From positions 1,922,001 to 1,986,000 of the forward strand of contig NZ_CP059556.1 of the NCBI RefSeq assembly GCF_024734405.1: DNA of 64,000 bases, written 5' to 3'. The position numbers and the translations under genes are program-made. Under the pieces are notes generated by a model. The model saw nothing but the letters and a program-made list of their open reading frames with translations. It was not told where the DNA came from and made no database searches. Shown one piece after another: positions 6,383 to 64,000 of the stretch. Source of the stretch: Saccharopolyspora gregorii. Lineage in GTDB: Bacteria; Actinomycetota; Actinomycetes; Mycobacteriales; Pseudonocardiaceae. Each line of letters opens with the position of its first letter. The stretch's first letter is position 1.

Positions 6383-8278
6383 TCAGAGGGTGGTCGCCAG
6401 GCGGTTCGCGAGCAGCGAGGTGAACTTCGCCGGGTCGCGGAGCTCACCGCCCTCGGCGAGCAGCGCCATCCCGTACAGCAGCTGCGCCGTCTCGGCCAGG
6501 TCGGCCCGCTCGCCGTCCGCGGTGTGCGCGGAGCGCAGCCCGGTCACCAGCGGGTGCGTCGGGTTGATCTCCAGGATGCGCTTCACCCGCGGCACCTGCT
6601 GGCCCATCGCCCGGTACATCTTCTCCAGCGTCGGCGTCATGTCGTGGTTGTCGCCGACGATGCACGCGGGGGAGCTGCTGAGCCGCGAGGACAGCCGCAC
6701 CTCCTTCACGTCGTCGGACAGCGCCTCGCCCAGCCAGGACAGGACCCCGGCGAACTCCTCCTGCTGCTGGGAGTCCTCCTCGGTCTTCTCGTCGAGGTCG
6801 ACCTCCCCCTTGGTGATGGACTGGAAGCGCTTGCCGTCGAACTCCGGCACCGACTCGACCCACATCTCGTCGATCGGGTCGCTCAGCAGCAGCACCTCGA
6901 CGCCCTTGTCCCGGAACGCCTCGATGTGCGGCGAGTTCTCGATCTTGGTGCGGGAGTTGCCGGTGATGTAGTAGATGACGTCCTGGTCCGCCGGCATCCG
7001 CTCCACGTACTGGCGCAGCGTCGTCCGGTCGCTCTCGTGGTGCGTCGACTCGAACGAGGAGATGTCCAGCACCAGCTCCGCGTTGTCCGGGTCGCCGACG
7101 ATGCCCTCCTTGACGGCCTGCCCGAAGTTGTCCCAGAACGTGGTGTAGCGCTCGGCGTCGTTCGCCTGGATCTCCTGCACCGTGGTGAGGACCTTCTTCA
7201 CCAGACGGCGGCGCACCATCTGGATCCGGCGGTCCTGCTGCAGGATCTCGCGGGACACGTTCAGCGACAGGTCCTGCGCGTCCACGACGCCCTTGACGAA
7301 CCGCAGGTACTCCGGCATCAGCTCTTCGCAGTCGTCCATGATGAACACGCGCTTGACGTAGAGCTGGGTGCCGCGCTTCTGGTCCCGGGAGAACAGGTCG
7401 AACGGCGCGGTCGAGGGGATGAACAGCAGCGCCTGGTACTCGAAGGTGCCCTCGGCCCGCAGGTGGATCGTCTCCAGCGGGTTGTTCCAGTCGTGGCTGA
7501 TGTGCTTGTAGAACTCGTCGTACTCGGCCTGCTCGACCTCGCCCTTGGGGCGGGCCCAGAGCGCCTTCATCGAGTTGATCGTCTCGACCTCGGTGGTGGA
7601 TTCCCCTTCGGCGCCGGGCTTGTCCACCTCCATCCGGATCGGCCACGCGATGAAGTCGGAGTGCTTCTTGATGATCCGCGTGAGGGTCCGGGTGTCGGCG
7701 TAGTCGAGCAGCCGGTCCTCCTGGTCCTCCGCCTTGAGGTGCAGCGTGACCGCGGTGCCCTGCGGGGCCTCGTCGACGGTCTCGATGGTGTAGGTGCCCT
7801 CGCCGCTGGACTCCCAGCGAGTCGCCGCGTCCTCGCCGGCCTTGCGGGTCAGCAGCACGACCTTGTCGGCGACCATGAAGCTGGAGTAGAAGCCGAGGCC
7901 GAACTGGCCGATCAGCTCCTGCGCGGCGGCGCCGTCGGAGGTGTCCTTGAGCTCCTGCAGCAGTTCCGCGGTGCCCGACTTCGCGATGGTGCCGATCAGG
8001 TCGCGCACCTCGTCCTTGGACATCCCGATGCCGTTGTCGCGGATCGTCAGCGTCCGCTGCTCGCGGTCCGGTTCCACCGAGATGTGCAGGTCGTCGGTGT
8101 CGACCTGCAGGTCCTTGTCCTGGTACGAGGCCAACCGCAGCTTGTCCAGCGCGTCGGAGGCGTTGGAGATGAGCTCCCGCAGGAACGTGTCCTTGTTCGA
8201 GTAGATGGCGTGCACCATCAGCTGCAGCAGTTTCTGCGCCTCGGCCTGGAATTCGGCCGTTTCCACCTGCGTGCTCAC
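6383..8278 (-). CDS. htpG: Molecular chaperone HtpG (bacterial Hsp90)
   Basis: 631 aa, full length for HtpG, starting at GTG 8278 with AGGAAGGA upstream. The N-terminal GHKL ATPase domain shows ELISNASDALDKLR (about 40-53), DNGIGMSKDE (about 82-91) and GQFGLGFYSSFM, the nucleotide-binding motifs of the family. The middle and C-terminal dimerisation domains are intact. It acts in the cytosol as an ATP-driven dimeric chaperone for client proteins under stress. It is divergent from a TetR gene, and no heat-shock operator was recognised in the 169-bp spacer. Confidence 0.98.
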   Translation of the reverse strand: MSTQVETAEFQAEAQKLLQLMVHAIYSNKDTFLRELISNASDALDKLRLASYQDKDLQVDTDDLHISVEPDREQRTLTIRDNGIGMSKDEVRDLIGTIAKSGTAELLQELKDTSDGAAAQELIGQFGLGFYSSFMVADKVVLLTRKAGEDAATRWESSGEGTYTIETVDEAPQGTAVTLHLKAEDQEDRLLDYADTRTLTRIIKKHSDFIAWPIRMEVDKPGAEGESTTEVETINSMKALWARPKGEVEQAEYDEFYKHISHDWNNPLETIHLRAEGTFEYQALLFIPSTAPFDLFSRDQKRGTQLYVKRVFIMDDCEELMPEYLRFVKGVVDAQDLSLNVSREILQQDRRIQMVRRRLVKKVLTTVQEIQANDAERYTTFWDNFGQAVKEGIVGDPDNAELVLDISSFESTHHESDRTTLRQYVERMPADQDVIYYITGNSRTKIENSPHIEAFRDKGVEVLLLSDPIDEMWVESVPEFDGKRFQSITKGEVDLDEKTEEDSQQQEEFAGVLSWLGEALSDDVKEVRLSSRLSSSPACIVGDNHDMTPTLEKMYRAMGQQVPRVKRILEINPTHPLVTGLRSAHTADGERADLAETAQLLYGMALLAEGGELRDPAKFTSLLANRLATTL

Positions 8279-21400: not shown

Positions 21401-21793
21401 ATGACCACGAACCCGATCGACCTCGCGACCGCGCTGGACGGCTTCGACGCCGCGTGGAGCCCGCGGATCATCGCCTACCTCAACGACTACGACGTCCGGC
21501 TCGCCCGCTTCCGCGGCGAGCACGTGTGGCACGTGCACCTGGAGACCGACGAGTTCTTCCTGGTGCTGGACGGGGAGATCGCCATCGCGCTGCGCGAGGA
21601 AGCGGGCGAGCGGACGGTGACCGTGCCGCGCGGCTCGGTGTTCGTGGTGCCGCGCGGGACGTTCCACAAGCCGTCGTCGGCGCGCGGTGCGGCGGTGCTG
21701 CTGGTGGAGCCCACCGGAACCCTCTCGGTCGGGGACGAGCACGACGAGGTGCCCGCGCACGTGGACGTCACCACCGGGCACCGGGTGCGGTGA
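21401..21793 (+). CDS. Small single-domain cupin
   Basis: 130 aa from ATG 21401 (GAGG 8-9 nt upstream; an ATG at 21392 is also in frame). One cupin fold: HVHLETDEFFLVLDGEI supplies His/His/Glu and VPRGTFHKP supplies the last His of the metal site. The enzyme activity cannot be deduced; such proteins include isomerases, dioxygenases and sensors. It is divergent from the GlxA-type regulator. Confidence 0.85.
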   Translation: MTTNPIDLATALDGFDAAWSPRIIAYLNDYDVRLARFRGEHVWHVHLETDEFFLVLDGEIAIALREEAGERTVTVPRGSVFVVPRGTFHKPSSARGAAVLLVEPTGTLSVGDEHDEVPAHVDVTTGHRVR

Positions 21794-60959: not shown

Positions 60960-61685
60960 TTGAAGACCGTGAGCGATGAGGTGCGCACCGGCGGTCCCGG
61001 GGGCGGGGCGGCGGAACTGGGTGCAGCGGAATTCCTGGAGCTGCTGGCCGACCAGGCGACCGCGGTCGCACTGGTCCAGGCGAAGTGGGTGGAGGCGGTG
61101 CGCGCCGTTCCACCCCCGCCGGACCTCGGCCCGCTCGCCGCCGAGGCGCGGACGGCGTCGCTGGACCTCGTCCGGCGCGACCTGTGGTTCCGCGCCGAAA
61201 CCGTCCGCGAGACCTGGTTCACCCAGTACGCGCAGTGGGTGAGCTGGTGGGTGGACACCGCCCAACTCGCCCTGCAGTCCGCGGCCGGTCGCCGACACGT
61301 GTTACCCGAGCGGGTGGTCGCACTACGACCGCCACCGGCCTACCTGGGCGGACTCGGTGCCGGCGCGCGCGCCCCGGAGCTCCGGCTGCGGTACTGGGGC
61401 GCCGACTGGTCCCGGAACTCGCTGCCCCGGTTGCTGGAGGCCGGGGAACTGGAAGAGCTGCTGGCGCTGGCGGACGTCGAGCGGTCGGAGGAGGTCCGGG
61501 CCGCCCACCTCGCGCTGCTGTCCGCCCGGAGCGCAGGCGACCTCGCCCTGCACCAGGAGGAGGCGAGGGTGCTCGACCCGGCCGCCATCGACCGGAACTG
61601 GGACCTCTACGGCCTCCGCCACCAGTTCGCGTGCGAGTTCGCCCAAAGCGTCCTCGACCACCTCCGAAACCCGGCCCCCGCCTGA
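60960..61685 (+). CDS. Hypothetical helical protein
   Basis: 241 aa from TTG 60960 with GGAGAGGGGG upstream; GTG 60969 in frame is an alternative. It is rich in Ala, Leu, Glu and Arg and probably all helical. Residues about 75-105 are unusually Trp-rich (WFRAETVRETWFTQYAQWVS, then WWVD). There are no membrane spans and no recognised domain. The frame has strong third-position GC bias along its length, so it is likely a real gene. Confidence 0.6.
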   Translation: MKTVSDEVRTGGPGGGAAELGAAEFLELLADQATAVALVQAKWVEAVRAVPPPPDLGPLAAEARTASLDLVRRDLWFRAETVRETWFTQYAQWVSWWVDTAQLALQSAAGRRHVLPERVVALRPPPAYLGGLGAGARAPELRLRYWGADWSRNSLPRLLEAGELEELLALADVERSEEVRAAHLALLSARSAGDLALHQEEARVLDPAAIDRNWDLYGLRHQFACEFAQSVLDHLRNPAPA

Positions 61686-61911: not shown

Positions 61912-64000
61912 CTATTCCGCGGCGAGCAGCCACAGCCAGGTCGACGGTGCGCCGAACGGCTCGCGGCGCTGAACCCGCAGTCCCGCCGCCGCGAAGGCGT
62001 CTTCGTAGGCGCGGCGGCTCGCGATCGGTGTGTCCATGAAGGCGTGCACCAGCTCGAACTCGACGGAGAAGATCGGCAGCGTGCTGGGCGAGGTACCCCA
62101 GTCCTGGCTGACGGTGTCGCCGACCAGGAACCACTTGGCGTCGGGGAACACCTTGCGCAGCATCCGCATCGTTCCTGCCGGGTCACCGCTGCTCTCGAAC
62201 AGGTCGTGCATCATGAGGAAGCTCGTGACCAGCTCGACGCCGGGGAACGTCCGCTCGTCGAGGACGTCGAGGACGTCGGCGCACACGACTTCCACGCGGT
62301 GTCCCAGTCCCGCGTCGGCGACGCGTTTGACCGCCTTTTCGCAGGCTCCCCGGCTGGTGTCGATTCCGAGCCCGGTGCGGGCCTCGTTCGATCCGCACAG
62401 CCGGATCAACCGGGAGGCATCACCGCACCCGAGGTCCGCGACGGTGCCGAAATCGACGTCCGCGACGACCTCGTGCTCGGTGCGCAGCATGAGTTCTTCG
62501 CCGACCAGACCGGAGCCGACGGCGACCTTCCCGCCATCGCGGTCGACGTCCGTGCCGAAGGTGGCCCGGCCCGTGGCCAGGTCGGAGAGGTGGAGCAGCA
62601 CGTCGCTGTACCCGCCGATTCCCCAGGTGAAGAAACCCCGGTGACGCGCCAGCACCCGTCCGGCGTCGGTCAGCGCGACCGTGCTCGCGGTCCCCGGATC
62701 CGACGGAGTGACAGCGGAACTCACCTCGACGTAGCCGAGCAGCGCGGCGGCGCGCAGGAGCGCGAGCAGCTTCGACGGCTCCGCTCCGGTCAGCGGGGGG
62801 AGAGCGTCGAACGGTCGCGCACCGTCCTGGAGGTGCTGCCAGACGTTCAGCTCGGTCAGGGCGAAGACCACGTTGGCGCCCACGTAGCCGTTGAACAGCG
62901 CCGCCGGTTCGATCACGGGTCCGGTGGCCACCTGGATGCGGCCCTTCGGAGCGCCGAGTCCGGTGTTCAACTCGTCGTGCACTTCGGAGTCTTCGAGGAT
63001 GGTGGCCAGCGCAGCGCAGAACCGGTCCATCTGCTCCGTCGTACCGACGGTGACCCGCAGGTGGGCGGGCAGACCGAACATGCTCAGGTCCCGGACCAGG
63101 ATGTCGTGGTCCTGCTTCAGCCGCGCGGCGATCTCAGCGCTGTTGCCGGACGGCTTGACGAGCACGAAGTTCGTGGCAGAAGGCTGGAACGCCACGCCCA
63201 TCTCGGTCAGGCGCGCGCAGAAGTGCTCCCGCGCCGCGACCGTCTTCCGCCGTACCTCGTCGACGTAGTCGCGGGACTCCAGCGCCGCGGCCCCGGCCTG
63301 CTGGACGATTCGATTGACGCTGAACGGCAGCGGCTCCCGGGTCCGGCGGATGCGCTCGACCAGGTCCGCCGGACCGAGCGCACACCCGAGTCGCAGGGAT
63401 GCCAGCCCCCACGCCTTGGAGAACGTGCGGAGCACCAGCAGACGACGACCGGCGCGGACCGCGCTGATCGCGTATTCGTGGTCCGGCCCCGCGAACTCCA
63501 TGTACGCCTCGTCGAACACCGGGATCACGCCGGCGGCCTCGGCGGCCGTGAGGATCCGCTCGACGTCGGAGGGTTCGAGCACCGTTCCCGCCGGGTTGTG
63601 CGGGTTGCAGACGAACACCAGCGTGGGCGCTCCTGCCTCCGGCGCGGCCATCGCCTGCACCACGGCGTCGACCGGCACCCGGTAGTCGTCCAACGGCAGG
63701 CTGTGGACGCGGGCGCCGACCACGCGCGCGGAGGAGACGTATCCGGGGAACGTCGAATCGGTGACCAGAACCGCGTCGTCGGAGCCGAGGAAGGTCATCG
63801 AGGTCAGCAGCACGAGTTCGTCGGCTCCGTTGCCCACGACCACCATGTCGGACTTCAGGCCGTGGTACTCGGCGACCCGTTCGCGCAGTTCCGCGCAGTC
63901 GCTGTCCGGATAGGACGTGCAGGCGTTGTCGAGTTCCTCGGTCGCCGCGCCGAGCGCGGCGGGTGGTGGCGGATAGGCGCTCTCGTTGCAGTGCAGCCTG
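61912..64000 (-). CDS. HisC-like aminotransferase fused to a SAM methyltransferase (5' end beyond window)
   Basis: About 695 codons are visible; the start lies past the right edge. Positions below count from an internal Met at 63846. The first part is a fold-type I aminotransferase of the HisC type: LHCNESAYPPPPAAL before the Met, then CNPHNPAGT (80-88), FDEAYMEF (111-118) and TFSKAWGLASLRLG with PLP-binding Lys144. After a short linker near 283-305 comes a methyltransferase with a winged-helix-like N-part and SAM motif VADLGCGDASRL (469-480). It then has FLMMHDLF (543-550) and ELVHAF (598-603). The layout suggests transamination plus methylation of a 2-oxo acid, as by MppJ/SgvM-type enzymes. 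Confidence 0.85.
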   Translation of the reverse strand, partial: RLHCNESAYPPPPAALGAATEELDNACTSYPDSDCAELRERVAEYHGLKSDMVVVGNGADELVLLTSMTFLGSDDAVLVTDSTFPGYVSSARVVGARVHSLPLDDYRVPVDAVVQAMAAPEAGAPTLVFVCNPHNPAGTVLEPSDVERILTAAEAAGVIPVFDEAYMEFAGPDHEYAISAVRAGRRLLVLRTFSKAWGLASLRLGCALGPADLVERIRRTREPLPFSVNRIVQQAGAAALESRDYVDEVRRKTVAAREHFCARLTEMGVAFQPSATNFVLVKPSGNSAEIAARLKQDHDILVRDLSMFGLPAHLRVTVGTTEQMDRFCAALATILEDSEVHDELNTGLGAPKGRIQVATGPVIEPAALFNGYVGANVVFALTELNVWQHLQDGARPFDALPPLTGAEPSKLLALLRAAALLGYVEVSSAVTPSDPGTASTVALTDAGRVLARHRGFFTWGIGGYSDVLLHLSDLATGRATFGTDVDRDGGKVAVGSGLVGEELMLRTEHEVVADVDFGTVADLGCGDASRLIRLCGSNEARTGLGIDTSRGACEKAVKRVADAGLGHRVEVVCADVLDVLDERTFPGVELVTSFLMMHDLFESSGDPAGTMRMLRKVFPDAKWFLVGDTVSQDWGTSPSTLPIFSVEFELVHAFMDTPIASRRAYEDAFAAAGLRVQRREPFGAPSTWLWLLAAE

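Follow-up and report, generated by a model that had tools for sequence, protein, structure and literature searches.

The gene at the right edge of the window, which is the whole 64,000-nucleotide stretch of the Saccharopolyspora gregorii genome analyzed here (G000:C1:1922001-1986000), encodes a HisC-like aminotransferase and a SAM-dependent C-methyltransferase in one chain, a one-chain variety of an enzyme pair that is already known. Other genomes carry the fusion too, and by kinship it stands next to gene cassettes ordered like those for beta-methyltryptophan. It is probably the single-chain equivalent of MarG/MarI (StnR/StnQ1), which would convert L-tryptophan and SAM into beta-methyltryptophan for a small natural-product pathway. 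An earlier note, made from the letters of the window, had proposed a beta-methyl amino acid synthase, and the homologies described below support this interpretation.

The fused gene and its two halves

The reading frame of the fusion ends with a stop codon at 61912-61914 on the minus strand and stays open up to the right window edge; the in-window part, as found by ORF calling (61912..64000, minus strand), comprises residues 21-715 and the stop. In the sequence that continues the window (L005, whose positions plus 60000 extend the window numbering), the ATG start lies 59 bases past the edge (L005:4059) and is preceded by AAGGGG at the distance of a ribosome-binding site. The full-length gene (L005:1912-4059, minus strand) encodes 715 amino acids, which confirms the uninterrupted frame described in the earlier note. 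Pfam recognizes Aminotran_1_2 at residues 19-351 (6e-62) and Methyltransf_25 at residues 540-618 (1.8e-6). Between the two halves, the alignment and the structure model place a linker at about residues 354-383 (62911..63000, minus strand). The model of the 695 residues encoded in the window has a mean pLDDT of 85.1 and a pTM of 0.58, with the confidence falling below 50 at residues 359-375 of the linker. Codon-position G+C amounts to 0.71/0.49/0.89 on either side of the junction and to 0.70/0.40/0.83 in the linker. An antisense ORF that overlaps the fusion (61840-64029) was rejected, its codon-position G+C of 0.88/0.49/0.72 being unlike that of the fusion gene. Directly downstream lies a convergent ORF of 241 residues (60960-61685, plus strand), which is coding-like by codon-position G+C and has no Pfam or NCBIfam match at 0.001. 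Foldseek searches with the fusion model returned HisC-type structures (3ffh_B, 1.3e-23) and MppJ (4kib_A, 4.4e-20, TM 0.83 on the target)—the latter a comparison that had been proposed beforehand—and these matches are assigned to the first and the second half, respectively, from their length and sequence.

The aminotransferase half (63007..64000, minus strand, with the first two residues of the Pfam match beyond the edge) carries the catalytic Lys215 within the motif TFSKAWG (63415..63417, minus strand), as judged by sequence alignment. From the domain match and the presence of the PLP-binding Lys, this half is assigned as a class I/II (HisC-like) PLP aminotransferase, as had been recognized from the window. 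Its score of 262.3 bits lies below HisC proper, for which the curated hisC cut-off is 276.55. The window genome holds 12 further matches to the fusion protein, all of them covering this half. Lys215 is kept in 40 of the 41 aligned aminotransferases. The exception is the fusion of an actinobacterial metagenome assembly (L058), whose aminotransferase half has lost Lys215, Tyr186, and Arg223 and whose methyltransferase half retains the metal site. The aminotransferase half of this protein looks dead, and because of the loss of these three residues the joined gene need not always act as an aminotransferase.

The methyltransferase half comprises residues 384-715 (61915..62910, minus strand), as delimited by Pfam, PDB search, and fold match, and features the SAM-site motif DLGCGD at residues 542-547 (62419..62436, minus strand; alignment). 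In the PDB search, MppJ (4kib) ranks best at 3.1e-21, followed by MrsA (8r4z) at 2.7e-14 and, in third place, by 8ftv (3e-11) and 8ftr (7.9e-11), which we take to be SgvM; CalO6 (2.7e-6) stands behind all these, in agreement with the MppJ/MrsA type suggested before. NCBIfam ketoArg_3Met (TIGR04543, MrsA) matches the fusion at 7.5e-23, far below its cut-off with 81.1 versus 425 bits. In the alignment, H618 and D619 (62203..62208, minus strand) stand opposite H243 and D244 of MppJ and H672 (62044..62046, minus strand) opposite H295, the MppJ numbers being derived from chain positions via a 20-residue offset between two MppJ constructs. These three MppJ residues are presumably the metal ligands, and an MppJ-type His/Asp/His metal site is thus predicted by alignment for the fusion. 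The earlier note had pointed to the same residues as 547-548 and 601, correctly if counted from an ATG within the window (63846), and the 54-residue spacing holds in the full protein. H618 is kept in 56/56 aligned methyltransferases and D619 in 53/56, with His in the other three, while H672 is kept in 56/56, a count that is partly by construction since one of the two scan patterns contains this residue. Three MarI-like methyltransferases (L096, L097, and L098; Streptoalloteichus and Streptomyces sennicomposti), in which His replaces the Asp of the metal site, stand in loci that carry NRPS-like ORFs. SgvM is described as holding zinc via two histidines, and the authors of that work presume enolization to be set off by the metal (PMC10502145). 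The metal of the fusion could likewise be zinc, as in SgvM, rather than ferric iron.

Relatives of the fusion and known beta-methyl amino acid systems

The fusion protein is matched at ≤1e-50 in 12 of 390 same-family genomes, and both halves are matched in one frame in two of these 12, namely the window genome (G000, residues 1-715) and that of Saccharopolyspora hirsuta (G800, residues 5-715). None of the five same-genus genomes searched gives a match at 1e-40, and the gene is therefore accessory. When named genomes were scanned with the methyltransferase alignment, 55 loci emerged, seven of which hold the aminotransferase and the methyltransferase in a single frame. These seven further fusions, six actinobacterial and one from Ruegeria, are 41-62% identical to the window protein: S. 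hirsuta (L043, the same genome as above) at 62%, Streptomyces griseomycini at 59%, Streptomyces sp. LUP47B at 57%, Streptomyces djakartensis JCM 4957 (L056) and Mangrovihabitans endophyticus (L057) at 54% each, the metagenome assembly (L058:7026-8957) at 43%, and Ruegeria atlantica HKCCD9103 (L060) at 41%. Their linkers are their own, as judged by alignment. The metagenome fusion adjoins a large NRPS-like ORF. In two further loci, each enzyme has a gene of its own, with the order unchanged: in Streptomyces sp. LUP30 (L107), the methyltransferase ATG follows two bases behind the aminotransferase stop, and in a Trebonia assembly (L059), the two genes overlap by four bases. The remaining 46 of the 55 loci feature a methyltransferase without a fused aminotransferase, and in 24 of these 46 a MarH-like cupin and a related aminotransferase lie behind the methyltransferase, 19 times directly and five times at a distance of some 3 kb.

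The eight fusions and the two two-gene pairs form one side of a branch in the tree calculated from 56 methyltransferases (SH-aLRT support 96), and they do so again in the tree of 52 aminotransferases (support 97); both trees are short searches with long-branch warnings (for the Ruegeria and metagenome loci, among others). Taken by themselves, the fusions are poorly separated from the two pairs and would need one change in the methyltransferase tree (support 60) and two changes in the aminotransferase tree. These trees agree with a single origin of the joined gene as well as with its splitting into two genes in the pairs. The next relatives in the trees are the cassette lineages with the order methyltransferase–cupin–aminotransferase.

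This order equals the gene order of stnQ1-stnK3-stnR. The cupin of one such cassette (L020) matches the PDB cupins 6j4b (3.8e-65) and 7eqk (6e-65), which we take to be MarH and a kin epimerase; Pfam assigns no family to this cupin or to that of Ruegeria. The enzymes of stnQ1-stnK3-stnR are described as converting L-tryptophan into beta-methyltryptophan in vitro, with StnR acting first and last, StnQ1 giving the (R) oxo acid, and StnK3 converting (R) to (S); the intermediate, beta-methyl-indolepyruvate, racemizes readily (PMC4742848). Like the fusion, the streptonigrin system (StnR and StnQ1, with StnK3) and the maremycin system (MarG and MarI, with MarH) combine a HisC-like aminotransferase with a SAM C-methyltransferase, a likeness that is drawn through cassettes of undescribed product next to the lineages of the fusion, and not through the Stn and Mar sequences themselves. 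The two known systems consist of separate genes in the order methyltransferase–cupin–aminotransferase, whereas the fusion is one chain in the order aminotransferase–methyltransferase and no cupin epimerase was found in its genome: the L020 cupin has no match there in a search run without a positive control. A small cupin-like ORF inside the window (21401-21793) was considered as a MarH-like epimerase and rejected, its matches to the L020 cupin being at chance level (E 1.4 and 1.7). MppJ and MrsA are homologous to the methyltransferase half, and MppJ shares its fold and the metal-site residues, but both are stand-alone proteins. Toward the cassette methyltransferases, the methyltransferase half reaches up to 221 bits (BLAST) at about 39-41% identity and toward MppJ 79 bits (phmmer), two scores that are not strictly comparable.

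In the route proposed for the fusion, the PLP aminotransferase half would remove the amino group of L-tryptophan to give indole-3-pyruvate, which would pass to the methyltransferase half, where a metal on H618/D619/H672 may favour the enol(ate). SAM would methylate the beta carbon to yield (R)-beta-methyl-indolepyruvate, and the aminotransferase half would re-aminate this oxo acid, probably with the amino group of the next tryptophan. The fusion would thereby hold the racemizing oxo acid near the half that rescues it. The net product would be beta-methyltryptophan, predicted to have the configuration (2S,3R) since the search for an accompanying cupin epimerase found none. For the (2S,3R)-beta-methyltryptophan of indolmycin and telomycin, two-enzyme routes are described (PMC7399079); two activities lead there to the isomer predicted here, although on separate enzymes, and these routes are likened to the fusion by description and not by sequence.

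Gene neighbors, substrate, and competing readings

Upstream of the fusion, on the same strand and beyond the window, lie the genes of a PF12902 protein (L005:4146-7007; up to 953 amino acids, start uncertain), of a P450 (L005:7103-8308; 401 amino acids), and of an FtsX-type ABC permease with its ATPase (L005:8583-11839), followed on the opposite strand by a histidine kinase and a response regulator. The earlier note had expected a peptide or alkaloid cluster past the right edge. A biosynthetic run does stand there, with the P450, the RebD/VioB-like protein, and the ABC exporter forming the small pathway that the product of the fusion would feed, but no NRPS adjoins the fusion in this genome, the nearest strong adenylation-domain match lying about 257 kb away (C1:2243219). 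An NRPS is found near the related gene in S. hirsuta and S. griseomycini.

The PF12902 family presumably holds RebD and VioB. By profile comparison, the PF12902 protein matches a RebD-like protein of Nocardiopsis flavescens over 837 columns (hhalign 97.4%, E 1.1e-11), with a profile of four sequences, whereas the tblastn match is weak (25% identity over half the length, 6e-8); the likeness to RebD/VioB-type enzymes consists of the shared domain and this profile match. The structure model of the protein is poor (pLDDT 41.4). Among 396 genomes of the phylum, a full-length match occurs in the window genome only, and two others match over the C-terminal part. Five of the eight fusion loci also contain the PF12902 gene (those of the window genome, S. 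hirsuta, LUP47B, S. griseomycini, and Mangrovihabitans), which was not found within the locus DNA examined in the other three (S. djakartensis, the metagenome assembly, and Ruegeria). The fullest matches on plasmids span two genes, as in Azospirillum (L050:8010-10947) and Mycetohabitans (L051:8013-11031); the Mycetohabitans locus features a LodA/GoxA-type oxidase and a tryptophan halogenase upstream.

The remaining genes of the run recur to a varying extent. P450 identity amounts to 73% in S. hirsuta, 68% in LUP47B, and only 30% in S. griseomycini. The exporter is again part of the cluster in S. hirsuta (permease 61%) and in Mangrovihabitans (permease 53%, ATPase 70%, kinase 49%). In S. hirsuta, four genes separate the PF12902 gene from the fusion, namely a free-standing NRPS A-T protein, a TauD-type dioxygenase, SbnB, and SbnA, the latter two—for diaminopropionate synthesis—both above their cut-offs. 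Diaminopropionate genes were rejected as a shared core: of the eight fusion loci, that of S. hirsuta alone shows them, and the window genome has no SbnB match above the cut-off. Elsewhere in the S. hirsuta genome (G800:C33:385160-390350), a second gene with SbnB nearby is 62% identical to the NRPS A-T protein of the fusion locus (L043:6683-12103), and a diaminopropionate unit may have moved between clusters.

The RebD/VioB-like partner of the fusion is the feature explained least, and the described beta-methyltryptophan pathways do not account for it. It suggests that the oxo acid rather than the amino acid could be the form that is used. RebD-type coupling joins two indolepyruvate imines, and the fusion might make beta-methyl-indolepyruvate or its imine for the PF12902 protein, with the aminotransferase half replacing the amino-acid oxidase of bisindole pathways and re-amination being a side reaction. 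The presence of the PF12902 gene in five of eight loci and its homology to the RebD-like protein over 837 columns argue for this, as does the oxidoreductase gene that stands beside the RebD-like gene in Nocardiopsis; next to the fusion of the window genome, no oxidase gene was seen. We nevertheless consider it unlikely, though well short of far-fetched: three loci, including that of Ruegeria, are without the PF12902 gene in the locus DNA examined, the pairwise match is weak and the profile small, the structure model is unusable, and a methylated beta carbon would hinder RebD coupling. Equally tentative is the wider prospect of an alkaloid logic in at least five actinomycetes, in which the fusion, a divergent RebD/VioB-like enzyme, and the P450 would lead to undescribed beta-methylated indole scaffolds.

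The substrate of the synthase proposed here is most likely tryptophan, as judged by relatives at 41-62% identity and their gene neighbors. Behind the fusion of S. djakartensis come a TxtE equivalog (4-nitrotryptophan synthase, scoring 757 bits against a cut-off of 500) and an NO synthase (2.8e-152); upstream of it lie genes for a carrier protein and for a protein resembling tryptophanyl-tRNA synthetase (133 bits, below the trpS cut-off of 176.75). The product of this locus is perhaps a nitrated beta-methyltryptophan, and the synthetase-like protein is possibly a self-protection copy. The same region (L056:2751-11702) also holds a pentapeptide-repeat protein, and the synthetase-like protein carries KMSKS. 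In Mangrovihabitans, a tryptophan halogenase (2.6e-138) stands ahead of the PF12902 gene and the fusion, and in the two-gene form of LUP30 the aminotransferase and methyltransferase genes are followed by a tryptophan halogenase (4.5e-143) and a flavin reductase. In Ruegeria (L060:5502-8975), an EamA transporter, a MarH-like cupin, and the fusion stand in a row; the cupin is 56% identical to the L020 cupin over 111 residues, and its stop overlaps the start of the fusion by four bases (ATGA at 6861-6864). This alphaproteobacterial locus has the appearance of a self-contained operon for making and exporting a product.

Tryptophan-specific genes are absent beside the fusion in the window genome, whose P450 stays below the TxtE cut-off (161 versus 500 bits). 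Together with MppJ—which acts on phenylpyruvate—as the closest solved relative of the methyltransferase half and with the match to ketoArg_3Met, low as its score is, this leaves some room for the same chemistry on phenylalanine, arginine, or a branched-chain amino acid, giving another beta-methyl amino acid. Such a substrate is nonetheless distinctly improbable, since the methyltransferase half is closer to those of the cassettes with a MarH-like cupin than to MppJ and MrsA, and three related loci carry tryptophan-specific genes.

It is highly unlikely that the methyltransferase half acts on oxygen or nitrogen, or that the aminotransferase half has other work, with the two joined for stability only. 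The Pfam methyltransferase matches are generic, with one above its cut-off, and a dead aminotransferase half persists in the metagenome fusion, both of which would suit such an arrangement; the PDB ranking, the kinship with the cassette enzymes, and the retained His/Asp/His residues speak against it, the earlier note having named clustering with O- or N-methyltransferases and absence of iron-site residues as grounds for giving up its proposal. A sequencing frameshift or annotation artefact, the other such ground, has next to no chance of being the explanation: a single indel could join a pair such as those of LUP30 and Trebonia, but it is excluded by the codon-position G+C, which is the same across the junction, and by the seven other single-frame fusions with linkers of their own.

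Significance of the one-chain form

Among the open-access papers listed in literature searches, no title or beginning of an abstract described a fused aminotransferase-methyltransferase of this kind, which is weak evidence in itself. As a search handle, the fusion leads to a family of clusters for which no product description was found and in which it is partnered with nitration, halogenation, NRPS, or RebD/VioB-like genes. A natural enzyme of one chain that both begins and finishes with the amino acid would offer a biocatalyst ready for use. It would also be a test case for how fused enzymes hand over an unstable intermediate, for which the two-gene pairs and the fusion with the dead aminotransferase half provide an evolutionary series.
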